Below are positions 5,420 to 18,304 of a stretch of 23,005 bases of DNA, piece after piece; position 1 is the first letter of the stretch; every line of letters starts with the position of its first letter. Source of the stretch: a virus. Position numbers and translations under genes: made by a program. The stretch covers positions 1-23,005 of IMG/VR virus record IMGVR_UViG_3300008517_000075; one strand, given 5' to 3'. The notes below the pieces were generated by a model, which was not told the DNA's origin, ran no database searches, and saw only the letters and a program-made list of their open reading frames with translations.

Positions 5420-5563
5420 ATGCCAGTTCATAGAACAAAAGGTGGTGGTTATCAATGGGGTCGCCACGGAAAGATTTATTACGGTAAAGGCGCAAAGGCC
5501 AAAGCCGCAAGACAAGGCCGTGCTGCCAGAGTCAGCGGGTATAAAGGAAAGAGGCACAAATGA
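5420..5563 (+). CDS. Small basic phage protein (47 aa)
   Basis: A short frame starting ATG CCA GTT CAT. The product reads MPVHRTKGGGYQWGRHGK, then IYYGKGAKAKAARQGRAA and SGYKGKRHK. This pattern (K-G-G-x-x-W-G-x-x-G-K-x-Y, later A-x-x-Q-x-R-A and S-G-Y) is one I associate with a widespread family of very small phage proteins of unknown role found near portal and capsid genes. It is strongly basic, with hardly any acidic residues, so nucleic-acid binding is plausible but inferred. Its last codons overlap the next gene as ATGA. Confidence 0.7.
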   Translation: MPVHRTKGGGYQWGRHGKIYYGKGAKAKAARQGRAARVSGYKGKRHK

Positions 5564-5931
5564 GAAAGATTGAATTGTTAATTGTCGTTGTGGTTTTGGG
5601 ATTGTTAGCGTTCTTGTTCTGTGGTTGCAATGAGTCGCAAAAGACGGACAAGTCGTTCCGTGTGGCTACAAAAAACCCACAAATACAGGCCGAATGGAAC
5701 GCTTTTAAGCAAGTGATTGGCAACAGGGATGATGAGTTAGCTGTTCTGGCCTTTAACCTATGGCGTGTGGACAGAGCGAAAGCGCCTTTGAGCGCGGTGT
5801 ATAAGCAAGTGCCTGACTCGAACGACCCTAACAAGTTGATAATCGTTAATCGGATAGATGAGATTGAGAAACGGCTGGCAGTATTAGAGAAATCAGAGGA
5901 ATATGATTTGGTAAGTGGATTAAAAAGATGA
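5560..5931 (+). CDS. Probable exported lipoprotein or membrane-anchored protein (123 aa)
   Basis: The N-terminus MRKIELLIVVVVLGLLAFLFCGC is a signal-peptide-like hydrophobic helix ending in a cysteine pair; C23 after G22 could be the lipidated residue, though the -3 and -2 positions (Phe, Cys) deviate from the usual lipobox. The rest is soluble and helical (EWNAFKQVIGNRDDELAVLAFNLWRVDRAK; IVNRIDEIEKRLAVLE is a short coiled coil). It begins within the stop of the 47-aa gene and ends overlapping the next tiny gene. I do not recognise a family. A cell-envelope protein in the middle of a capsid gene cluster is odd; superinfection exclusion or adsorption control are possibilities, not conclusions. 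Confidence 0.68.
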   Translation: MRKIELLIVVVVLGLLAFLFCGCNESQKTDKSFRVATKNPQIQAEWNAFKQVIGNRDDELAVLAFNLWRVDRAKAPLSAVYKQVPDSNDPNKLIIVNRIDEIEKRLAVLEKSEEYDLVSGLKR

Positions 5932-7698: not shown

Positions 7699-8724
7699 AT
7701 GGGAACAAACACAATTGGAGTAGCAGGGAATATCTACGACCTGCTCAAAATTAAAGCTCCTGACGGCTCACCGATAGATTTCGTCGTCAATACCCTTATG
7801 GAGCGAGACCCATTCACGGCCATTTTGCCCGTAATCCCTTCTAATGGCGGATTATCTCATAGGGGATTGAGACTTACTGGTCTGCCTACGCCGTATGTTG
7901 TTGATATAGGTGGAAGCTGGAAGGAAAGCAAATCGGACCGTGAGCCATTTACAGAAGGACTGGTTACAATCCGCTCAGCTTATCAGGCCCCTCAGGATGC
8001 GTTTGAGAATGAATCTCCTGCTATAAGAGCGGCCTTGCTGGAAGAAGAGCGCAAGGCTCATATTGAGGCCATTGATCAGGCGGCAATGAATTTGATGCTT
8101 CGTGGCTCGGACTCGACCACTAAAGGCCAAAACAAGCTGATTGGCCTGCTTGAAAGAGCGCCTTACCAGTCTGTTGATAACAAATACGTCTTTGATGTTG
8201 GCGGTTCAGCTATTTTGCGACACGCCTTATTGATGAAACTGGGCGTATCGACTGTCTGTGGGCTTTATAACCCATTCCACCCAACTATGGGCATTGAGGA
8301 AAAGGACAAGGGCGAGGTCAGGGTTGACGGACTTGGTACGAGTGAAGATGAGCATCGTTACGACATTTGCATCGAATACGCAATTACCAAAGGGCTTTGC
8401 CTGCGAGACCAGACAGCGTTCAAGTTGATTGCCAACATCCCTGTTGCCGCTTCGGACAACCCGGGTTCGACAATTGTTGATATGGCTATCGAGGCATCGT
8501 TAGTGAATGCAACTAAGAATGGCGATGGTAAACCGTGGGTTCTGTTCTGTTCCGAGCGGACTTATGCCAAGTTGGTCAAGGCGCAGAACGACAAGACATT
8601 CGTTTATACCACGGCGGACAATATCTGGCGGACAGAACTACCGATGATTAGCCCGAATATCACGATTGCCGTTATGGATGCCCTGAACCTTGATATTGCG
8701 GATTCGGAAACAGAACTCGCCTGA
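7699..8724 (+). CDS. Major capsid protein
   Basis: A 341-aa protein after the scaffold with a strong ribosome-binding site AGGAG seven bases upstream. Its N-terminus (NIYDLLKIKAPDGSPIDFVVNTLMERDPFTAILPVIPSNGG) and the blocks GGSWKESKSDREPFTEGL, AYQAPQDAFENESPAIRAALLEEERKAHIEAIDQAAMNLML (long spine-helix-like segment), then LCLRDQTAFKLIANIP and the late NITIAVMDALNLDIAD match my memory of capsid proteins of BPP-1-like podoviruses, which have the HK97 fold. Length fits. It forms the icosahedral shell, probably with the product of the following gene as cement. A hairpin overlaps its stop codon. Confidence 0.88.
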   Translation: MGTNTIGVAGNIYDLLKIKAPDGSPIDFVVNTLMERDPFTAILPVIPSNGGLSHRGLRLTGLPTPYVVDIGGSWKESKSDREPFTEGLVTIRSAYQAPQDAFENESPAIRAALLEEERKAHIEAIDQAAMNLMLRGSDSTTKGQNKLIGLLERAPYQSVDNKYVFDVGGSAILRHALLMKLGVSTVCGLYNPFHPTMGIEEKDKGEVRVDGLGTSEDEHRYDICIEYAITKGLCLRDQTAFKLIANIPVAASDNPGSTIVDMAIEASLVNATKNGDGKPWVLFCSERTYAKLVKAQNDKTFVYTTADNIWRTELPMISPNITIAVMDALNLDIADSETELA

Positions 8725-8787: not shown

Positions 8788-9312
8788 ATGATACTAACGA
8801 AACCTGGAAAATTGTGCATTGCACAGGACGTGGCTAATACCACGGAAGATTCCGACAATGTAATCCAGCTCAACAAAACAGCGAATGCTGGCGGCACTAC
8901 GCTGGCGGTAAACTTCGCACCAAACTCAAAGCTGGTAATCCAAAATGCGAAAATAGCTGAAACCGCAGGGACATTGACCATTGATGTTGTTCTCGCTCTT
9001 GAAGCAGCTTTGGATAACAGGACGCTTTTGCATCAGATTTACATTGCGGCAATTACGGATTATCGCACTGTCAGGGCAGGCGCGATGATACACGAGTGGA
9101 AGATACCGGCCTGGGTCGATGAGCTTGCCTATCAGCTTTCGGTGAACAACAGCAATAGTGATATTTTCTTCGGCTTGTATATCACTACGGGCACATCGAC
9201 TTATTACATCAACGCTGCCGTTGCACCTTGCGATGCGCCTGACGGATTCACCAACAGGCAGGTAGTAGAATCGCCGGTAGGTGTTCCAGCTAATTGTTCA
9301 GCCGGAAGTTGA
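8788..9312 (+). CDS. Bbp16-like capsid cement (decoration) protein
   Basis: A 174-aa protein with ribosome-binding site AAGGAG (8774-8779). Its start, MILTKPGKLCIAQDVANTTEDSDNVIQL, follows the pattern of the Bbp16 cement family of Bordetella phage BPP-1 (MILDxxxxFSDAQAVTATAxSTNVIDLG), and it continues with alternating beta-strand patterns (TTLAVNFAPN, GTLTIDVVLALEAALDNRTLL, AGAMIHEWKIP, QLSVNNSNSDIFFGLYITTG), suiting a jelly-roll. Cement proteins sit as trimers or dimers on the outside of the expanded shell and stabilise it against internal DNA pressure. Its place directly after the capsid gene supports the call. Confidence 0.7.
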   Translation: MILTKPGKLCIAQDVANTTEDSDNVIQLNKTANAGGTTLAVNFAPNSKLVIQNAKIAETAGTLTIDVVLALEAALDNRTLLHQIYIAAITDYRTVRAGAMIHEWKIPAWVDELAYQLSVNNSNSDIFFGLYITTGTSTYYINAAVAPCDAPDGFTNRQVVESPVGVPANCSAGS

Positions 9313-9388: not shown

Positions 9389-11719
9389 ATGAAAAAGTTT
9401 TTAACTATTATGGTGTTGCTGCTGCTCTGCACGAATACGTTTGCCGCTTTGACTTATGGCCCGACTTACTACCGAAACAATTTTCAATATCAGGAAAATT
9501 CGACAAGAAACCCGATATATTTGTTTCTCGATGAAATGGACACTCTGACTTCTGGCGGGCTGATTTATCAGTTTACCCCGACTACCGAACCGGCTACTCC
9601 GGCAGAAGGTATGTCTTATTATGATGATGTTGCCAAGGCCGTGAAGCTCTATACTGGTGCCGCTTTTGTTGCACTTGGCACTACTGCTAACGGAACATCC
9701 CTTGATGGCTCTTACGATTTGGGTTCGGGCATTACCGTTGATGGTGATGCGGTTACTTTAACGGTTACTGACAACGCCAATAATGCCGCATTAAGTATCG
9801 CGCAGAACGATGCAACTAATGATCCTGACGGTCTTTTGATTACGATGGCTACAGACTCCGATGGCATTGCTTTGCATATCAACGGCGTTACTGCCAGCAC
9901 TGACATTTCTGCTGATAATTGGAGTGTTTCGACAGCGGGCGTGTTTACTTATGCCAACGCCGAAACTATTGATAACGCTACTGATGACAAGTTTGAGTTT
10001 AACAGCAACGACAAAGAAGATTTTACACTTGACCTGTCAGGCACTAATATAGTTGGTTTTGCAAGCGACACGGATGCTGTTACGTTAGAGTTCAATGCTC
10101 TTGATGCGTTTACCGGCGTTGGAAGCATTACCTTTGACGCCGCCGCCGCTACGATTACCACTGCTACCTCTGGCGATGCACAGGATTTAACAGTTTCCGT
10201 AACAGGTGCTCACGACTCAAGCCTTATTCTTACGTCTGCCGGGACTTCCACTACTGATGCAACGCAGTTACTTGCAACTGTCGGCTCAATAAAGATAAAT
10301 TCGGCGGACAACCTTGATATTGATGCCGCAGACAATATTACTATTGATACGGCAGGTGGTGCTTTAACTACTACGGTTACTGGTGGGGATTATACCGTTG
10401 ACATCACCGACAAATCCTACAAGTTGGATTCCGGCGAAGCCGACGCTGATGCTATTTGGCTTTGTGCCACTGATGCCGCTGGCGGTATTAATATAGATTG
10501 CGGAACAGGTACTTTAGACATTGATGTTGCCGGTGCAATAAATATGACTAATAGTACAGCGGTCGATATTACAATCGACTCTACTGCTGGTTCGGTTAAT
10601 ATTACTGGCACGCAGGAAGCTGCTGATGCTATTGCTATTCTTGCTGATGGCACAGCGGGCGGTATTACCGTCGGTTTTGGTACTGGCAATATGGTTGTAA
10701 CCGGAACCGGTGCAAGTGCTGATTTTACTCTCGATGCTGACTTGATTAGCATAGATGGAACCGGCACTTCTAACATTACCTGTACCAATGGCGCTGGAGA
10801 AGACTTTACTATTTCAACTGCTGGTGCTGCCGACCACAGTTTAATTATCACCACTACTGGTACAGCCGCTGATTCTTTACAAATTACAACTACTGCCGGC
10901 GGAATGGATATTACTAACGGTGGTGCATCTGGTGAAGACCTCGATATAGATGGCGTGCTATCTGCTGTAACTATCAATTCTGACGAAGCAACAACTGACG
11001 CCATTGATATATCAGCTACTTTGGGTGGTATCACTATGACAAGCACGGCTGTCGCATCATCGTGGACACACACATCAACTGGTACTGCTGACGACCTGAC
11101 TATTTCTGTCGCAGGAGCAACAAACTCAAGTCTTATTTTGGCTTCTTCTGGAACAGGCGAAGATGCGTTGAGTCTATTAGCATCAGGCACGTCTGCAAGT
11201 GCTGCGTCTATACTTATCGACACTGCCGATGGCGGAATAGTTATGACCGCAGATGGTTCGATCAAAGGCGACATTACCATTGATGCTGCTGACGACATAA
11301 CAATCACGGCAGTAGGCAAGGTTACTATGAATCTTGGTGCTGAAGCGTCTACGTACCAGGGTAATTTTCTGCCAGCCACCGTTAAGAAGCAGACAATTAC
11401 AACTAGCTCGCTGTCAACCGCCCATTGTGGTTATTGCAATCAAGTAGCTGTTGATGCGCAGACAATTACTTTGCCTGCTGCGGTCGCTGGTGTAGAATTT
11501 TGGATTATGTGTACCGCAGCCGATGGCGTGGCGTTGGTGACAATAGAACTTGATAATTCCGATAAGTTTATTGGTGCTGGTTTGACTCCCGCTGACGGCG
11601 AGGCGATACTTCTTACCCAAGCAACACAGAACTATGGTGATTACATCAAAGTTTCTGCACATACTGACGGTTGGATTATAACCGAAATGGTAGGTACTTG
11701 GGCGGAAGCCTCACCCTAA
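9389..11719 (+). CDS. Signal-peptide-bearing repetitive fibre-like protein (776 aa)
   Basis: From the ATG at 9389 the protein starts MKKFLTIMVLLLLCTNTFAA, a textbook Sec signal peptide with a likely cut after TFA. Residues about 20-95 end with a GMSYYDDVAKAVKLYTGAAFVAL block like those in tail-fibre N-terminal parts (G-x-x-Y-Y-D ... K-x-Y-x-G-x-x-F). The long middle (about 100-650) is Thr/Ala/Asp/Gly/Ser/Ile-rich, very acidic, nearly free of Arg and aromatic residues, with repeats such as DLTVSVTGAHDSSLIL (266), DFTISTAGAADHSLII (472) and DLTISVAGATNSSLIL (569), and many xxIDIxxADNITI strands: a beta-solenoid-like shaft. The C-terminal 120 residues (AQTITLPAAVAGVEFW ... GWIITEMVGTW) form a separate globular domain of a kind seen at the end of phage fibres and bacterial surface proteins. 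Probably an adhesin or side fibre; the signal peptide is unexplained. Confidence 0.72.
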   Translation: MKKFLTIMVLLLLCTNTFAALTYGPTYYRNNFQYQENSTRNPIYLFLDEMDTLTSGGLIYQFTPTTEPATPAEGMSYYDDVAKAVKLYTGAAFVALGTTANGTSLDGSYDLGSGITVDGDAVTLTVTDNANNAALSIAQNDATNDPDGLLITMATDSDGIALHINGVTASTDISADNWSVSTAGVFTYANAETIDNATDDKFEFNSNDKEDFTLDLSGTNIVGFASDTDAVTLEFNALDAFTGVGSITFDAAAATITTATSGDAQDLTVSVTGAHDSSLILTSAGTSTTDATQLLATVGSIKINSADNLDIDAADNITIDTAGGALTTTVTGGDYTVDITDKSYKLDSGEADADAIWLCATDAAGGINIDCGTGTLDIDVAGAINMTNSTAVDITIDSTAGSVNITGTQEAADAIAILADGTAGGITVGFGTGNMVVTGTGASADFTLDADLISIDGTGTSNITCTNGAGEDFTISTAGAADHSLIITTTGTAADSLQITTTAGGMDITNGGASGEDLDIDGVLSAVTINSDEATTDAIDISATLGGITMTSTAVASSWTHTSTGTADDLTISVAGATNSSLILASSGTGEDALSLLASGTSASAASILIDTADGGIVMTADGSIKGDITIDAADDITITAVGKVTMNLGAEASTYQGNFLPATVKKQTITTSSLSTAHCGYCNQVAVDAQTITLPAAVAGVEFWIMCTAADGVALVTIELDNSDKFIGAGLTPADGEAILLTQATQNYGDYIKVSAHTDGWIITEMVGTWAEASP

Positions 11720-11738
11720 TCGAAAATCGAATTTTATG

Positions 11739-11770
11739 GGGGCAGGTTAAAAACTGCCCCAGTTTTAATT
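11739..11770 (+). terminator. GC-rich hairpin after the fibre gene
   Basis: A perfect 7-bp stem GGGGCAG (11739-11745) / CTGCCCC (11754-11760) with an 8-base A-rich loop, then AGTTTTAATT. Terminator-like, but with only four consecutive T. It precedes the AAGGAG ribosome-binding site (11771-11776) of the next gene, the same arrangement as at 9337. Confidence 0.5.
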
Positions 11771-11784
11771 AAGGAGATATTGAT

Positions 11785-12399
11785 ATGAGAAAGGTTTTAA
11801 TAATCTTTATAATGAAAACAAAAATTTTCCTAACAATTCTGATTTTGTTTTTGGCCTCAGTTTCGTGGGCGGATGAGCTTGAGACGGTTCAGCCTCCAGC
11901 TAAACTAATTAAGACCTCTAATTCCAATGATGCCGCTCTTGGTGTAGATGGTACTTCGTGGGCGGTAGCAAGTGGCTGGCCTCTTTTATCTGTAAAAAGC
12001 AATGCTCTTAAAGTTAAATTCTATGTCTATGATTCTAACACCAGTGGGCCGAATGACACAACTTTTAGCTATGAATTTTACGTTGCCGATTACGGCTGTA
12101 ATGCCGAAAAGGTAGCCGCTGGCTCTGCTACTTGCGGAGCTGCGCAGTTGAGCCACGACCCAGCAAATCCACTTGCAGAATTAAATAGCGGCGACCCAAA
12201 CTCGCTTTATTGCTGGGTTGATACGTTGGGAACGATTACAACTGATTGGGCATCTCTCCTACTTAAACAAAATGACGGTGGTCTCAATGATGTCGCATCT
12301 TTCATATTTGACAGGCAAACAGCGAAAAAGGCGTGGTGCAGGATTTACAACAGGTCAAGGTCAACAATGACTGTTTATTGCGTGATTTATTATTATTAA
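11785..12399 (+). CDS. Exported protein of unknown function (204 aa)
   Basis: AAGGAG (11771-11776) eight bases upstream fixes the ATG. The N-terminus has two Met-Lys/Arg starts in a row (MRKVLIIFI, then MKTKIFLTILILFLASVSWADE), giving an unusually long hydrophobic signal with a likely cut after SWA (residue about 29). The mature part looks like a beta-sandwich (LKVKFYVYDSN, TTFSYEFYVADYG, WVDTLGTITTDW, VASFIFDRQ, KKAWCRIYNRS, MTVYCVIYYY) and holds five cysteines, which would suit disulfides outside the cytoplasm. The block DVASFIFDRQTAKKAW feels like a phage surface-protein motif but I cannot name a family. It lies between the fibre and the beta-helix gene, so a virion-surface or envelope role is likely. 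Confidence 0.62.
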   Translation: MRKVLIIFIMKTKIFLTILILFLASVSWADELETVQPPAKLIKTSNSNDAALGVDGTSWAVASGWPLLSVKSNALKVKFYVYDSNTSGPNDTTFSYEFYVADYGCNAEKVAAGSATCGAAQLSHDPANPLAELNSGDPNSLYCWVDTLGTITTDWASLLLKQNDGGLNDVASFIFDRQTAKKAWCRIYNRSRSTMTVYCVIYYY

Positions 12400-12465
12400 A
12401 AAGATGTACTTTGCCAGACAGATTTGAAAATCAATGGTTGCGCGTGGTGCTTTTTACATTATGCG

Positions 12466-12471
12466 AAAGGA
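12466..12471 (+). promoter_or_regulatory. Ribosome-binding site that fixes the beta-helix start
   Basis: AAAGGA seven bases before the ATG at 12479. The longer in-frame opening at 12434 adds fifteen residues, has no such site, and would bury the signal peptide. Confidence 0.65.
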
Positions 12472-12478
12472 CAAACTA

Positions 12479-13489
12479 ATGAAGAAGTTCATTGCGATTA
12501 TTCTCTTGTTTTTTGCTGTTCCTGTTTTAGCGGCGGACTTGTATGTTTCAAAAACTGGCAATGATGCCAATGATGGCTCAAGCTGGCAAGAGGCTAAATT
12601 AACAGTTCAGGCAGCAATAGATGCGGCTTCCAGTGGCGATGAAATTGATGTTAATAGCGGCACTTATAATGAGTCTGTTACTCTGAGTGATGGTATCGCC
12701 CTTGACGGACTTGATAAGACAGCGATTATTTCCTGTATTGGTGAGTCCGAAACAGCATTAGAACTACACCATAACTGTACTATAAAAAACCTGACTTTAT
12801 CAAGTACATATATTGGTACTAATACGTATGGATTGCGTGGGGCTGGTAAAAGTAATTTTGTTGTAGAAGATTGCAATATAAACGGTTCGTATGACGGTGT
12901 CCATTTACTTAGTTGCCACAACGGTATATTTAGGAACAATATAATCAAAGGTAAATTTGATGGTGGATGGATAGGCGGTGAGTGTTCTAATTTGCAGTTT
13001 ACTAATTGTGATTTTACAGGGTTGGGTACTTACGGGGATGTAACTTGCAGGGGGTTTGTTGTTGGCCCCTCGCGGAATTGCAATTTTACAGATTGTGATT
13101 TCTACGGTAGTAGAATTGACAACAGCATTTACGACTTAGGCGGGTGTCTGGTAATAAATAGTACAAATGTTTGCACATTTAATTCTTGTAGTTTCCGTTC
13201 CTCTGGAGGCGCTTTGCCGACAGGCGAACAGTATGCTTTAAGGTTGGGCACCACCAGCAGAGGTGCTTGCGTTGGCACTGCTATAGTTGATATGGGTACT
13301 TTCTTGAATGAACATCTGGGTTCGCCTTCACAACAGTATGATGTTGAATTAGTAACTCCCGCCGACACTGCGCCAGGCTTAATTTATATTATTAATTCCT
13401 CTTATGATAAAACTAAAATATCTGGAACAAGGATAATCGAGGCATTTCGCGGCAAAAGAGATAGGTATGGTCTTTTTAGCAGAAGGTGA
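12479..13489 (+). CDS. Signal-peptide-bearing right-handed beta-helix protein (336 aa)
   Basis: Begins with the signal peptide MKKFIAIILLFFAVPVLAA, cut probably after VLA. The mature N-terminus DLYVSKTGNDANDGSSWQEAKLTVQAAIDAA is the characteristic opening of pectate-lyase-like parallel beta-helix proteins (A-x-Y-V-x-x-x-G-x-D-x-x-x-G-S-x-x-x-P-x-x-T-I-Q-x-A-I). Coils follow with PbH1-like turns (TIKNLTLSS, FVVEDCNINGSYDGVHLLSC, GIFRNNIIKG, LQFTNCDFTG, CNFTDCDFYGS, CTFNSCSFRSSG). About thirteen cysteines lie in the coils. In phages such folds are tailspikes that bind or cut surface polysaccharides; no catalytic residues can be assigned. It sits just upstream of the gatekeeper, where T7-like phages have no such gene. 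Confidence 0.75.
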   Translation: MKKFIAIILLFFAVPVLAADLYVSKTGNDANDGSSWQEAKLTVQAAIDAASSGDEIDVNSGTYNESVTLSDGIALDGLDKTAIISCIGESETALELHHNCTIKNLTLSSTYIGTNTYGLRGAGKSNFVVEDCNINGSYDGVHLLSCHNGIFRNNIIKGKFDGGWIGGECSNLQFTNCDFTGLGTYGDVTCRGFVVGPSRNCNFTDCDFYGSRIDNSIYDLGGCLVINSTNVCTFNSCSFRSSGGALPTGEQYALRLGTTSRGACVGTAIVDMGTFLNEHLGSPSQQYDVELVTPADTAPGLIYIINSSYDKTKISGTRIIEAFRGKRDRYGLFSRR

Positions 13490-13503
13490 GAAAAAATTAA
13501 AAA

Positions 13504-13572
13504 ATGCCAAACGAAACCAGAAAGATGCTTGTCGCAAATCACAAGATTTATATTTGGTATAGGAGATATTAA
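13504..13572 (+). CDS. Possible 22-aa peptide before the gatekeeper
   Basis: A 22-codon frame (MPNETRKMLVANHKIYIWYRRY) fills most of the 85-bp gap and ends two bases before the gatekeeper ATG, containing that gene's AGGAG site in its last codons. It has no good ribosome-binding site of its own. It could be a coupling leader peptide or chance. Confidence 0.2.
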   Translation: MPNETRKMLVANHKIYIWYRRY

Positions 13573-13574
13573 AT

Positions 13575-14549
13575 ATGGCAACCGATTCGCTTGAACTAAT
13601 TAACGCGGGTTTTCTTAAACTTGGCGGGGCGGGCGACCAATTTGGCAATGTGCCTTTTTTGCCGAATCTTAATGGCGATGACAACCTGACGTTACGCTCT
13701 ATTGATACGTATGCAAGAGTGAGAAAAAAAACCATTACTGACTTGGCTGTGAGAAAAAGTCCTTTCAAAGAAACCTTAAAATTTGCAGACCTCGGCGATG
13801 ACCTTGTTCAAGATGACCTTGACATAGCGAGCATTGCCGTTGGCGCAGACCCGTTTCCTGTAACAGTTACAACCTCGGAAGCCCACGGATTAACAACCGA
13901 AGATACAAGATACATCACGGGAGTAAGGGGTTCAGGCGGGATAAGTGCGCTTAATAATACCCTCAAAACTATTACAGTAATTGATACAACCAGTTTTACT
14001 CTGGATGATACTATCGGCTCTGCGGACTGGTCGCATACTGGAAATACGGGCAAGGTATCCAAAGTTCCCGAAATTGGGGGTTGGACTTACGCCTTTGATT
14101 TGCCGAGCGATTGTATAGCTGTAGTTCGGCAGATTGATGAGGCATTTGTTTCATCCACCAAGAACAGGCAGGAATACAGATTTAATACAATACTTAATCG
14201 CGCAGGTGATGGCAAAATCCTTGTTACGAACAGCTTGTCTAATAGCGCGGCGGATAGTGCATTTATTGAGTATTGTATCGACCAAGACGATACTACGATA
14301 TTCAGCCTTCCTCTTGAGGAATGTATTATTTGTATGTTTGCGGCGGAGATATGTCCGGTTGCTGGCAAAGACCTTGAAGTAAGGGTTGCTTTAATGCAAG
14401 AATATCTTCAGATTACTCTACCTAACGCATTGGCTTACAACGGCTCGCAGAGTAATAATATAGCAAAGCAAATTCAGAGTTATCTTAGCAGCAGAGGGGC
14501 TACCCGCAGTAACGAAACCCGTGCACAAAGATATAGAAGCTCTACATAA
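13575..14549 (+). CDS. Gatekeeper / tail tubular protein A with inserted beta domain
   Basis: A 324-aa protein. The N-terminal helices (LELINAGFLKLGG ... SIDTYARVRKKTITDLAVRKSPFKETLKFADL) and the later GWTYAFDLPSDCIAVVRQID, FIEYCID ... FSLPLEECIICMFAAEICPVAGKDLEVRVALMQEYLQ match T7 gp11-type gatekeepers (Y-x-Y-x-L-P-x-D-C-L-x-V, L-A-x-x-L-A). Between them about residues 84-163 are an insertion (VTVTTSEAHGLTTEDTRYITGV, TITVIDTTSFTLDD) of the HGLTTGD...TVxVIDxTTFTL type, the motif databases often label ubiquitin-activating E1 FCCH-like. The insert probably projects from the tail ring. The protein attaches to the portal and joins it to the nozzle. AGGAG ten bases upstream gives the start; the stop overlaps the nozzle ATG. 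Confidence 0.82.
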   Translation: MATDSLELINAGFLKLGGAGDQFGNVPFLPNLNGDDNLTLRSIDTYARVRKKTITDLAVRKSPFKETLKFADLGDDLVQDDLDIASIAVGADPFPVTVTTSEAHGLTTEDTRYITGVRGSGGISALNNTLKTITVIDTTSFTLDDTIGSADWSHTGNTGKVSKVPEIGGWTYAFDLPSDCIAVVRQIDEAFVSSTKNRQEYRFNTILNRAGDGKILVTNSLSNSAADSAFIEYCIDQDDTTIFSLPLEECIICMFAAEICPVAGKDLEVRVALMQEYLQITLPNALAYNGSQSNNIAKQIQSYLSSRGATRSNETRAQRYRSST

Positions 14550-17500
14550 TGAAAAAGATTTTGTTTGTTTCAGTTTTGCTCTTTTTTACAGAAGGGTTGT
14601 TGGCAGAGCAGCATTTTACGCCCACTATCGAGTCGCTTAATACCGGCTATGTAAGTCCCCTTATGGAATCGAGGACGGATTTTGGTAAATACAAATCATC
14701 CTGTAGAACACTCGAAAATATGTTCGTAACACCTCAAGGGCCGGCAACGAGAAGGCCAGGCACAAAATATATAGCGACAGTAAAAGACAGTAACTATCCA
14801 GCAAGGCTCATTCCTTTTGAGTATTCAACCCTGGACGCTTATATTCTTGAGGCAGGTAATGAGTATATACGATTTTATCGTGATGGAGGGCAAATACTTA
14901 CCTCAATCGGAACCGAAACTCTTGGCGCACTTGACTCAAACGATATTGCCTATTGGAAGCTAAACGAGGATGCGGACAGCAATGCCGTAGATGAAGAAAA
15001 TGAAACTTACGATGGTGTTGCTACGACAACCACGGATGTGCTTCATTATCTCGGCAAAGTTGGCACTGGCAGCTTTGACCTTGACGGTCAGTATGCCGTT
15101 GAAATCGACGACAACGATGTCTTTACCTTTTCCGAAACGGGCAATCCTTTTAGTATAGTTGCTTGGGCCCATGTGACTGATTCAGCTGAGGTGCAAACAA
15201 TCATATCGAAGTGGGAAGAGGGAACAGGAAGAGAATGGCGGTTACAGCTTCTCTCGGACGAGACTTTACGATTGGAATTATACGACGACAGCTTGGGTTT
15301 AGATGTTAATTGTATTTCGCAATGGAAGCTAAACGAGGATGCAAACAGCAATGCCGTAGATGATGCGCAAGAAGAGCAAGATGGTGTAGCTACAGCGAAT
15401 ACAGAGGATTTGCACGTCGCAGGTAAACTTGATGGTGCTTTTGACTTTGATGAGCAATATGCGGTAGTAATAGATGATAATGATGTTTACAGTTTTGGTG
15501 ATGGTACTGACGATAGTCCCTTTAGTATAGCCGCGTGGATATACAACGATGGAAGTAATGGATATCAGATAATAGTATCCAAAAATGGCTCGGCAACAAC
15601 CAGTTACGACGAATGGTACTTTGCCTTAGTCAATCAAAAACTTTACCTGATTCTTTACGACAAAAATGCCAATGCTTATCGGTTTAAGATTACCGACTCT
15701 ACAATATCAACAGGATGGCATCTTGTAGTTGCAACTTATGATGGTTCTGGGGGCACAAGTGCGGCGGACAAAATAACTCTCTATGTTGATGATGTGGATA
15801 CGGCGTCCACTACGGGTAGTGTGGGCACTTATGTGGCGATGGAGAACCTTGATGGCTTGGTTCGTATTGGCGCAGGATTTTATTCATCAGGAGTTTTGGC
15901 GTATTATTTCCGTGACAAAATTGATAATGTAATGATATTTGATAAGGAACTTTCTGCTTCAGAGGTATTATCTCTTTATGCTTCTGGTTCAGGAACAGAA
16001 GACTTGGCCGGTGATTCGATTTATACGACAACTGACGATGCCCTTGAAACTGGCTGGCATCTCATAATAGCAACTTATGACAGCACTGGAGGTGTTTCCG
16101 CAGCAAACGGCATTGCTTTGTATGTCGATAATAATACTGCTGCTGATACAACAGTTCATAACTATGCTAATTATGTTGCTATGGAGAATACTGCTACCGA
16201 TTTAAGAATTGGTTCTCAGCTATCATCTGAATCGGCTCAACAGTACATTTGGCAGGACAAGTTAGACAATATAATAATCTTTGATTATGAATTAACAAGC
16301 TCAGATATTGCAATTCTGAGAACGGAAGGCCCTTATAAGATAGAAACTCCTTATAGCCAATCTGAAAGTTCTGATATTCAATATGCTCAATCCGGTAGTA
16401 ATTTATACCTCGTTCATCCGAATCATCCCCCGCAGAAACTTGAACGATACACTCACGATTGGTGGATAATAGATGATGTTGATATCACGACAGGGCCGTT
16501 CCTATCGGAAAACACAACGAGTACAACTATAACACCTTCGGACGTAAACGGGACAATCACCCTGACCGCCAGCAGTCCTATTTTCAGAACAAGTCATATT
16601 GGCTCAATATGGGAAATAAACCAAAAAAGAGATACGTCTGTGTTTACCGGCACGCTTGACGCCGATGAATCATCTTCTGAAACAGATTATTTTTATGGTG
16701 GATATAGTTTCACTACGGACGAGGAGTCTGTTTGGGATGCCACCGTAACCCTTGAAAGAAGCACAAATAATGGCACGACTTGGCAGGCTGCTCTCAGCTC
16801 TTTGCACAAGACCAATTTTGATAACCCCGCTGAGACAGAAGAAACAGGTGCTATATACAGGGCAACAATGGAGGATTTCGTTTCTGGCTCTTGCGATTAT
16901 ACCTTCGTAATATCAGATCCTTGGAATCATGGAATTATCAAAATCACTGGCTATTCTAATCCTACCACGGTAACCGCCGATGTAATAGTAAAGTTGGCGA
17001 ATACCGATGCTGCTTCACGCTGGAGAGAAGGGTATTGGTCGGATTACAGGGGGTGGCCGCAAACAGTAGAGTTTCATCAACAGCGACTTGTATTTGGAGG
17101 GTCGGCTTCTTACCCTCAACATCTATGGTTTGGCAGAGCCAATCCCTCTGACTATGAGAATTTTACAGAAGGCACACTTGATACCTCGTCCTTTACTATG
17201 GCGTTAGAAGGCCAAAATCCTATCCGATGGCTTCTTTCGCAGGATTATTTATTTATAGGAACAATGGCAAGTGTAGGTAAATATGGCGGGCAAGGCGAGG
17301 CTATCACTCCGACAAGTCCGAGCTATCGCGAACAATCAAAAAGCGGGTCTGCTTCCATCAGGTCAGTTCTTGCTGGTGATGCTATCCTTTATGTTGAACG
17401 TGGCGGGCAGCGAGTCCGGGAATTTATTTATAATTTGTCAATGGACAAGTTTATCTCTCCACCCTTGACGATTCTTGCCGAGGATATTGCCAATAGTGGG

Positions 17501-18304
17501 ATAAAAGACATTGCATTTCAAACCAGACCCGACTCTATATTATGGTGTGTTCTTAATGATGGGGATATAGCAGCATTAACCTATCAAAGAGAACAGGAAA
17601 TCTTTGGCTGGTCTCTTCAAACCACCGATGGGGATTTTGAATCTATTGCCAAAATTCCCACTGAATCAGGAGAGGATGAAATATGGGTGGAGGTCGAAAG
17701 AACAATAGATAATAGTAGTGTGAGGTATATTGAACAATTTCAACCAAGAGATTGGAGCAGTGATATTAACGACTGCTGGTTCGTGGATTGCGCCTTAAAC
17801 TACGATGGTAATGATGCTAACAGCTTTACTGGCTTGAATCATTTAATCAATAAGGATGTTTATGTCCTCGGCGATGGTGTAATTGAACCGAATGAGATTG
17901 TTGATGCAAACGGTGAAATTGTAATAGACAGGGCGGCAGGAAGAATCACGGCAGGTCTGCCTTTTACATCCAAGCTTGAAACAATGCCCATATATCTTGA
18001 CCCGATGGATAAACCATACAGTAAGAATATCCTGCAATTGTGGTTTGATTTCTACAAAACCGGATTCTGCAAATATGCAGCGAGCAAAAACGCCAGCAAG
18101 CTAACGAATATAAATTTTGAAAATGATATGAGAACAGACCCTAATGCGACGGCACAGGAACTTTATACTTCTGATAATATGCTAAAAGAAGTAATCGACC
18201 AGTATAGTTCATCGCAAAAACATTCAATTTACCTTGAATCGGATGCCCCTTTGCCGCTTACGGTAAGGTCAATAACCTATAATGTAGTAGGGTACTCGAA
18301 ATGA
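14549..18304 (+). CDS. Tail nozzle (tail tubular protein B-like) with nested LamG domains and signal peptide
   Basis: A 1251-aa protein. Residues 1-19 (MKKILFVSVLLFFTEGLLA) look like a Sec signal peptide. Directly after it comes the conserved nozzle start (HFTPTIESLNTGYVSPLMES, then RTDFGKYKSSCRTLENMF, PQGPATRRPGTKYIA, RLIPFEYSTLDAYILEAGNE). The nozzle resumes at GPYKIETPYSQSE (594) and runs to the end with blocks typical of podovirus nozzles (FHQQRLVFGGSASYPQHLWF, PIRWLLSQDYLFIGT, GDAILYVERGGQRVREFIYNL, DSILWCVLNDGDIAALTYQREQEIFGW). Residues about 130-593 are an insertion: the first half of a LamG (concanavalin-like) domain from 136, a second complete LamG (about 255-482), then the missing second half of the first (about 485-593). 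Start is a TAATG overlap without strong ribosome-binding site; an in-frame TTG pair at 14597/14600 could give a form without the signal. It forms the tail tip through which DNA leaves. Confidence 0.88.
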   Translation: MKKILFVSVLLFFTEGLLAEQHFTPTIESLNTGYVSPLMESRTDFGKYKSSCRTLENMFVTPQGPATRRPGTKYIATVKDSNYPARLIPFEYSTLDAYILEAGNEYIRFYRDGGQILTSIGTETLGALDSNDIAYWKLNEDADSNAVDEENETYDGVATTTTDVLHYLGKVGTGSFDLDGQYAVEIDDNDVFTFSETGNPFSIVAWAHVTDSAEVQTIISKWEEGTGREWRLQLLSDETLRLELYDDSLGLDVNCISQWKLNEDANSNAVDDAQEEQDGVATANTEDLHVAGKLDGAFDFDEQYAVVIDDNDVYSFGDGTDDSPFSIAAWIYNDGSNGYQIIVSKNGSATTSYDEWYFALVNQKLYLILYDKNANAYRFKITDSTISTGWHLVVATYDGSGGTSAADKITLYVDDVDTASTTGSVGTYVAMENLDGLVRIGAGFYSSGVLAYYFRDKIDNVMIFDKELSASEVLSLYASGSGTEDLAGDSIYTTTDDALETGWHLIIATYDSTGGVSAANGIALYVDNNTAADTTVHNYANYVAMENTATDLRIGSQLSSESAQQYIWQDKLDNIIIFDYELTSSDIAILRTEGPYKIETPYSQSESSDIQYAQSGSNLYLVHPNHPPQKLERYTHDWWIIDDVDITTGPFLSENTTSTTITPSDVNGTITLTASSPIFRTSHIGSIWEINQKRDTSVFTGTLDADESSSETDYFYGGYSFTTDEESVWDATVTLERSTNNGTTWQAALSSLHKTNFDNPAETEETGAIYRATMEDFVSGSCDYTFVISDPWNHGIIKITGYSNPTTVTADVIVKLANTDAASRWREGYWSDYRGWPQTVEFHQQRLVFGGSASYPQHLWFGRANPSDYENFTEGTLDTSSFTMALEGQNPIRWLLSQDYLFIGTMASVGKYGGQGEAITPTSPSYREQSKSGSASIRSVLAGDAILYVERGGQRVREFIYNLSMDKFISPPLTILAEDIANSGIKDIAFQTRPDSILWCVLNDGDIAALTYQREQEIFGWSLQTTDGDFESIAKIPTESGEDEIWVEVERTIDNSSVRYIEQFQPRDWSSDINDCWFVDCALNYDGNDANSFTGLNHLINKDVYVLGDGVIEPNEIVDANGEIVIDRAAGRITAGLPFTSKLETMPIYLDPMDKPYSKNILQLWFDFYKTGFCKYAASKNASKLTNINFENDMRTDPNATAQELYTSDNMLKEVIDQYSSSQKHSIYLESDAPLPLTVRSITYNVVGYSK
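14954..14994 (+). repeat. LamG duplication, copy 1
   Basis: 41 bases encoding WKLNEDADSNAVD, 39 of 41 identical to 15323-15363. It marks the start of the outer LamG domain in the nozzle gene. Confidence 0.88.
15323..15363 (+). repeat. LamG duplication, copy 2
   Basis: Second copy, 369 bases (123 codons) downstream and in the same frame, encoding WKLNEDANSNAVD. Two adjacent G-to-A differences from copy 1. Similarity continues more loosely (QYAV-x-IDDNDV-x-x-F in both), so this marks the start of the inner LamG domain. Confidence 0.88.

Follow-up and report, generated by a model that had tools for sequence, protein, structure and literature searches.

The window examined here is a 23,005-nt stretch of viral DNA (IMG/VR record IMGVR_UViG_3300008517_000075, positions 1 to 23,005) carrying a structural module in which the tail nozzle and three further tail-module proteins begin with N-termini resembling signal peptides of the general secretory (Sec) pathway, referred to below as tags. 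On this 23-kb contig, the module order is terminase, portal (assigned by position), scaffold region, capsid, cement, three tail-module open reading frames (ORFs), gatekeeper, nozzle and internal virion proteins (Table 1). The nozzle matches phrog_376 along its whole sequence (residues 25–1246, expectation value (E) 3e-174), with the gatekeeper (phrog_394) upstream and internal virion proteins of phrog_308 and phrog_418 downstream. The identities given to nozzle and gatekeeper in an initial annotation of the window were thereby confirmed. The nozzle fold was modelled for the homologue L088. The AlphaFold model of L088 (predicted local distance difference test (pLDDT) 79) retrieved Carin-1, LME-1, cyanophage and T7 tail chains as best Foldseek matches and, minus its tag, resembles the Carin-1 nozzle 8ck1_A (template modelling (TM) score 0.70) and also T7 nozzles. 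A sequence search of the PDB also returned a Carin-1 chain named Tail Nozzle.

Predicted signal peptides in the window

All four N-termini comprise a basic n-region, a hydrophobic core and small residues at positions -3 and -1. With the predicted cut shown as ^, they read MKKFLTIMVLLLLCTNTFA^ALTYG for the ORF at 9389, preceded by a good Shine-Dalgarno (SD) sequence, AAAAGGAG; MRKVLIIFIMKTKIFLTILILFLASVSWA^DELET for that at 11785 (SD AAGGAG), where an in-frame ATG at 11812 would yield the shorter signal MKTKIFLTILILFLASVSWA; MKKFIAIILLFFAVPVLA^ADLYV for that at 12479 (SD AAGG); and MKKILFVSVLLFFTEGLLA^EQHF for the nozzle. The nozzle start overlaps the gatekeeper stop (TAATG), so that ATG 14549 is its natural start. 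Semi-tryptic peptides starting at predicted cuts in the window would be EQHFTPTIESLNTGYVSPLMESR, ALTYGPTYYR and ADLYVSK.

To score these N-termini we used a three-part signal rule, for which annotated genes of E. coli K-12 served as calibration. At its threshold of 4.4 the rule, which also counts membrane anchors, accepts 1/66 cytosolic and 15/17 exported-class proteins. All four window N-termini lie above this threshold, while gatekeeper, capsid and cement score 0. Random N-termini matched to the composition of each protein's own body reached 4.4 in only 1, 19, 7 and 2 of 3000 draws (0.03–0.6%) for the ORFs at 9389, 11785, 12479 and 14549, respectively. The initial annotation, which had placed signal-like N-termini at these four positions and none on the gatekeeper, was correct on both points. 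When read directly, the four signals show no RR ahead of the hydrophobic core and do not carry the SRRxFLK-type motif of a twin-arginine translocation (Tat) signal. As judged from their sequence, the four N-termini are typical signal peptides of the Sec/signal peptidase I type, and the head proteins and gatekeeper are without them.

The proteins encoded at 9389 and 11785 had no match in the family libraries Pfam, PHROG and NCBIfam. The family of tail-module protein 1 is also found in L007, L238 and, N-terminally, in the contig of L011 (L214), in each case with a signal-like N-terminus; the L007 homologue (L007_1578) carries a different signal, MKKWIILLIGIVCLGAAIA, and the same mature start, LTYGP. 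L237_5438, homologous to tail-module protein 2, is likewise signal-bearing. For the 12479 protein, PHROG tail-fibre matches start at about the mature N-terminus.

Table 1. Coordinates of the window features and of the divided nozzle loci of relatives
Feature	Position	Strand	Evidence
Major capsid protein, no signal	7699..8724	+	matches epsilon15/phiV10-type major head proteins; rule score 0
Cement protein, no signal	8788..9312	+	placed after major capsid protein as in epsilon15; score 0
Tail-module protein 1, predicted signal peptide, 19 residues, MKKFLTIMVLLLLCTNTFA	9389..9445	+	rule score 5.74
Tail-module protein 1, mature part: long, repetitive, fibre-like	9446..11719	+	family comparison
Tail-module protein 2, predicted signal peptide, 29 residues from 11785 / 20 from 11812	11785..11871	+	rule score 6.19
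Tail-module protein 2, mature part	11872..12399	+	homologue L237_5438, E 2e-27
Tail-module protein 3, predicted signal peptide, 18 residues, MKKFIAIILLFFAVPVLA	12479..12532	+	rule score 6.35
Tail-module protein 3, mature right-handed beta-helix, tail-fibre/spike-like	12533..13489	+	Pfam Beta_helix 2.9e-9
Gatekeeper (head-to-tail adaptor), no signal peptide	13575..14549	+	phrog_394 E 1e-12; score 0
Tail nozzle, predicted signal peptide, 19 residues, MKKILFVSVLLFFTEGLLA	14549..14605	+	rule score 5.26; 43 tagged among 90 relatives
Mature tail nozzle, two inserted laminin-G-like domains (residues ~130-605)	14606..18304	+	phrog_376; Laminin_G_3
Divided nozzle, L258	8941-13948		break at HMM 93-95
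Divided nozzle, L334	1333-3627		break at HMM 93-95
Divided nozzle, L335	7586-11697		break at HMM 93-95

Tagged nozzles and tail modules among relatives

A first search round provided 148 distinct nozzles with a bimodal distribution of scores, 11 at 4.4 or above and the other 137 at 3.3 or below. Searching viral contigs with the window nozzle as the only query gave no match, and a first alignment was too diverse for genome contigs, whereas closer alignments retrieved relatives. Two further scans with such alignments raised the tally to at least 43 distinct tagged nozzles, out of 90 examined. Residue -1 at the predicted cut of the 43 tagged nozzles is A in 29, G in 10 and S in 4, a preference partly built into the rule. 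Five additional tagged nozzles (L277, L279, L292, L335 and L351) were missed by the rule, owing either to an unusual start codon or to failure of the motif search. In L279, L351 and L292, no ATG, GTG or TTG is suitably placed, and translation seems to begin at an ATT or ATA that follows a G-rich SD-like stretch. Untagged nozzles start directly before the conserved motif (MARVAVQLTNFTAGELSPRL and similar).

A tree of 87 nozzles was built from the part of the sequence that follows the tag; on it, the tag label takes 6 changes compared to 29 when shuffled. Its groups are that of the window (25 rows, one of them, L238, untagged), one with L010 and L088, one of 13 that includes L139, and an untagged one around L092. 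L223 stands alone, and some long branches are of uncertain placement. As judged by this tree, the nozzle tag is a lineage trait, for which more than one gain is possible. Signals share 14–29% identity in five of six families, compared to 50–56% for the adjoining mature parts in four of these; in this comparison, cut positions for L138, L049 and L093 are off by 1–3 residues, on which the conclusions do not depend. The predicted tags thus diverge in sequence and keep their chemistry. This does not support the view of the initial annotation that export of a nozzle would be self-defeating, nor do the divided nozzles described below, whose pieces have their own tags.

The tag is shared by genes around the nozzle. 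ORFs upstream were tagged in 103/280 cases beside tagged nozzles versus 3/209 beside untagged ones (p 2e-25, a value overstating independence because the contigs are related and relatedness was left uncorrected); the corresponding figures in the first set were 22/52 and 4/447. At least one tagged upstream ORF was present on 43/43 contigs with a tagged nozzle and on 3/32 with an untagged nozzle; the only hit counted for L011 is a weak gatekeeper false positive, genuine tagged ORFs being present on its contig. Downstream of the nozzle 18/147 ORFs were tagged, fibres included. Portal, scaffold, capsid and cement ORFs were untagged throughout and gatekeepers scored 0, except for one weak rule hit. 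The L007 contig spans 50.7 kb, and its nozzle gene runs across the ends of the record; here, 6/21 structural ORFs were tagged versus 2/38 others, membrane anchors being counted as well. The T7-type fibre domain was tagged in 11/11 cases beside tagged nozzles and in 0/40 beside untagged ones, counts obtained after rescoring L237 and L261 (internal matches) and taking the L277 nozzle as tagged. According to these counts, the tag marks the whole tail module.

Predicted cut sites and divided nozzles

The fibres L007_5674, L237_6823 and L238_8497 are mutually homologous, and the last two match the T7-type tail fibre and spike families phrog_1640, phrog_6518 and phrog_2234. The L238 fibre, which is untagged, begins MTVASSESIRESF, whereas those of L007 and L237 read ...TPVFA^TVPAGESIREYF and ...YSTAAA^TVPAGETIREFS, respectively. 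The residues that directly follow the predicted cuts, 18 in L007 and 22 in L237, both align with residue 2 of the untagged fibre. For nozzles, the distance from cut to conserved motif has a median of 9 (3–13) in tagged members, and that from Met to motif in untagged members is 7–14, mostly 10. The predicted cut thus leaves the N-terminus with which untagged relatives start. This confirms the proposal of the initial annotation that a signal had been prepended to an intact gene, as does its suggested comparison with relatives: the nozzles of five annotated relatives start directly at the conserved region.

Several nozzles are divided. In L258, two N-domain genes (865 and 113 residues) precede the body (690 residues, positions 93–725 of the hidden Markov model (HMM)), and all three pieces have their own signal, that of the body being MKKIILLIILFLSAVSFA^ETSGQIL. 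In L334 and L335, the body starts at HMM 94–95 behind its own signal. The short N-domain gene(s) of L335 are also signal-bearing, the first copy being without a clear start codon. A signal at a position that is internal in a continuous nozzle is predicted by selection for export of each chain and not by the other readings discussed below. Since the N-domain occurs twice as separate genes in L258 and L335, these nozzles are possibly hetero-oligomeric. Two further observations concern nozzle architecture. Adjacent ORFs of 66 and 525 residues with the nozzle N-domain and no signals occur in the Planctomycetota-binned L246 / L250 (G796:C141:18580-20528). The laminin-G-like pair of the window nozzle (14935-16365) follows a GGQIL motif, near where other nozzles are divided; it is also found in L139, and a similar insert in L049.

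Probable export of tail proteins and competing explanations

The presence of tags on nozzle and fibres and their absence from head proteins suggest separate compartments for heads and tails, with late joining. We favour, with a probability of about 0.6, an explanation in which the tail module carries working, cleavable Sec signals, tail parts are exported while heads stay in the cytoplasm, and both are joined upon failure of the inner membrane. The tail-module proteins, nozzle and fibres among them, would be made as precursors and pass the Sec translocon of a diderm host, signal peptidase I would cut them, and maturation would take place in the periplasm. The cytoplasm would retain portal, capsid, cement and gatekeeper together with most of the internal virion proteins, and heads would there fill with DNA and be closed by the gatekeeper. 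Head and tail parts would come together once holin or lysis ruptures the inner membrane, or on the membrane itself as this happens.

The steps of this scheme differ in strength. Comparison shows the presence of the signals, their conservation across the module and the canonical N-terminus to which the predicted cut leads. Tags throughout the module, predicted cuts at native starts, tags on divided genes and conserved chemistry together favour selection for export and cleavage of tail proteins; they speak against chance, against a dual start and against an uncleaved membrane helix. Export and cleavage of the tail-module proteins are thus highly probable. Chance or mis-called starts could be discarded on the basis of the calibration, random draws, conservation and divided genes. 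For head-tail joining after failure of the inner membrane, which we infer from the distribution of tags, the odds are somewhat better than even; a precedent is that heads of classical phages can be completed in vitro with tails or tail parts. That a lineage of tailed double-stranded DNA phages has two-compartment assembly, with filled heads in the cytoplasm, nozzle and fibres in the periplasm and virions completed only upon breach of the inner membrane, stands at even odds.

Several points weigh against this explanation. Known short-tailed phages add nozzle and fibres to heads inside the cytoplasm, and a DNA-filled head would have to stay sealed without its nozzle. No functional reason for export emerged from cysteine content, which is not consistently raised in mature tagged proteins (0 to 4 per 100, overlapping head proteins), so that disulphide bonds were rejected as the reason. 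In L238, nested among tagged phages, nozzle and fibre are untagged and two other tail-module ORFs have signals; nozzle export is therefore not indispensable. That the neighbouring fibre and nozzle genes of L238 are both untagged fits a need of the two proteins for a shared compartment, but could also result from a single recombination. Lastly, the host assignment relies on contigs binned with metagenome-assembled genomes (MAGs), and binning of phages can err.

By this binning the host is probably a planctomycete, a diderm. Within the window group, the tagged L237 and L238, whose nozzle is untagged, fall in MAG bins of one Planctomycetota order, as does L139 from another tagged group; L138, a 3-kb contig, belongs to a Bipolaricaulota bin and L150/L223 to a Dependentiae bin. 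Most readable nozzles in Planctomycetota bins are untagged, so that the tag is not simply a property of hosts in Planctomycetota, nor a habit of all related Planctomycetota podoviruses, an account which we rejected on the same ground. In L139 (269-7094, Planctomycetota contig), a complete tagged nozzle lies beside a divergent histidine kinase gene with no gatekeeper upstream; this locus may be a prophage remnant or orphan nozzle. The initial annotation had offered four meanings of the signals without choosing, and was supported in part. A host with unusual compartments fits best, given two tagged lineages in one Planctomycetota order, as assigned by binning. Membrane-associated assembly and surface display are less likely, as detailed below, and the fourth, a dual-start nozzle, was not supported.

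If the signals brought nascent tail proteins to the inner membrane, tails could be built and docked there and need not be fully released into the periplasm. Such targeting would require no other signals, joining would not have to await lysis, and some signals are long (L049_5135 and L088_448, ~30 residues). Most hydrophobic cores are short, however, and end in small-residue cut sites, signal peptidase I works on the outer face, and separate tags on divided nozzle pieces fit release better than anchoring of one complex. We consider such docking unlikely, though the best of the alternatives.

Less probable still is that tail proteins, once exported, have a role outside the cell, such as the blocking of superinfection or of receptors, while the virion copy is made from an internal start. 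The window has in-frame TTG codons at 14597 and 14600, the dual start considered in the initial annotation, and in L010 and L011 an ATG lies close to the canonical start. Such an ATG near the cut is present in only 5/43 tagged nozzles, however, and the TTG codons of the window follow the purine stretch ACAGAAGGG without any gap, which leaves it too near to be usable as their SD. No second, untagged nozzle gene was seen. An internal start, neither conserved nor provided with an SD, was therefore rejected.

Uncleaved hydrophobic N-termini could, alternatively, be virion parts inserting into host membranes during infection, since fibre and nozzle N-termini have hydrophobic helices and AlphaFold gives residues 2-16 of L088 as a helix. 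A low-confidence break (15-17) separates this helix from the fold, the N-terminus of T7-type fibres is established as the particle-binding and not the host-facing end, and predicted cuts coincide with the starts of untagged homologues, making this highly improbable. The least credible proposal is capture of tail-module genes from host secreted proteins, with signals as relics: secreted bacterial proteins often contain beta-helix and laminin-G domains and the 12479 protein could be such a capture, but nozzle and T7-type fibre belong to virion families of which other phages have untagged members, and relics would decay, whereas tag chemistry is kept across deep divergence and on each piece of divided genes.

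Compared with known systems, the window and its relatives share with T7/epsilon15/Carin-1-type short tails the gene order, nozzle sequence (phrog_376) and fold, the gatekeeper phrog_394 and, in relatives, the fibre domain phrog_1640/6518. They differ by the signal, which the nozzles of the five aligned annotated relatives lack; none of the 40 phage-collection matches listed for the nozzle starts from residue 1. It is established that filamentous phages insert or export signal-bearing virion proteins (M13 pIII, pVIII) before assembly, but these are headless single-stranded DNA phages extruded without lysis, whereas tagged phages are double-stranded DNA head-tail phages. The window is not of the filamentous type, as shown by its epsilon15-type major capsid protein and terminase matches. 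Endolysins with signal peptides or of the signal-anchor-release (SAR) kind and spanins are established Sec-using phage proteins, but they are lysis proteins and not virion parts. Assembly of tailed phages is taken as wholly cytoplasmic until lysis, and we know of no description of a two-compartment route for them. We found no earlier description of exported tail proteins in the open literature searched, most subscription journals and preprints lying outside its scope. In PMC8951688, where an endolysin bears the signal peptide, and in PMC12989515, signal peptides are ascribed solely to lysis proteins; PMC10386132 contains no mention of them.

If correct, a Sec-exported nozzle and fibres would break the rule of wholly cytoplasmic assembly, and head completion and tail addition would be separable in space. 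Testable questions would include by what means the filled head is kept closed and what the tail gains in the periplasm (chaperones, calcium, modification or avoidance of premature triggering). The tag also provides a marker by which tail genes of little-known phages can be recognised from sequence, here linked mainly to Planctomycetota.

Other features of the window were also noted. The gatekeeper (13575-14549) has 324 residues compared to ~200 in annotated relatives, and an insert at residues ~96-157 (weak E1_FCCH match). Between the portal and scaffold regions, positions 5560-5931 encode a small protein, MRKIELLIVVVVLGLLAFLFCGCNESQ, whose N-terminus is signal- or lipoprotein-like. The ORF at 1-726, which lies upstream of the terminase genes, has a weak NCBIfam match (E 2e-4) to radical SAM mobile pair protein A.

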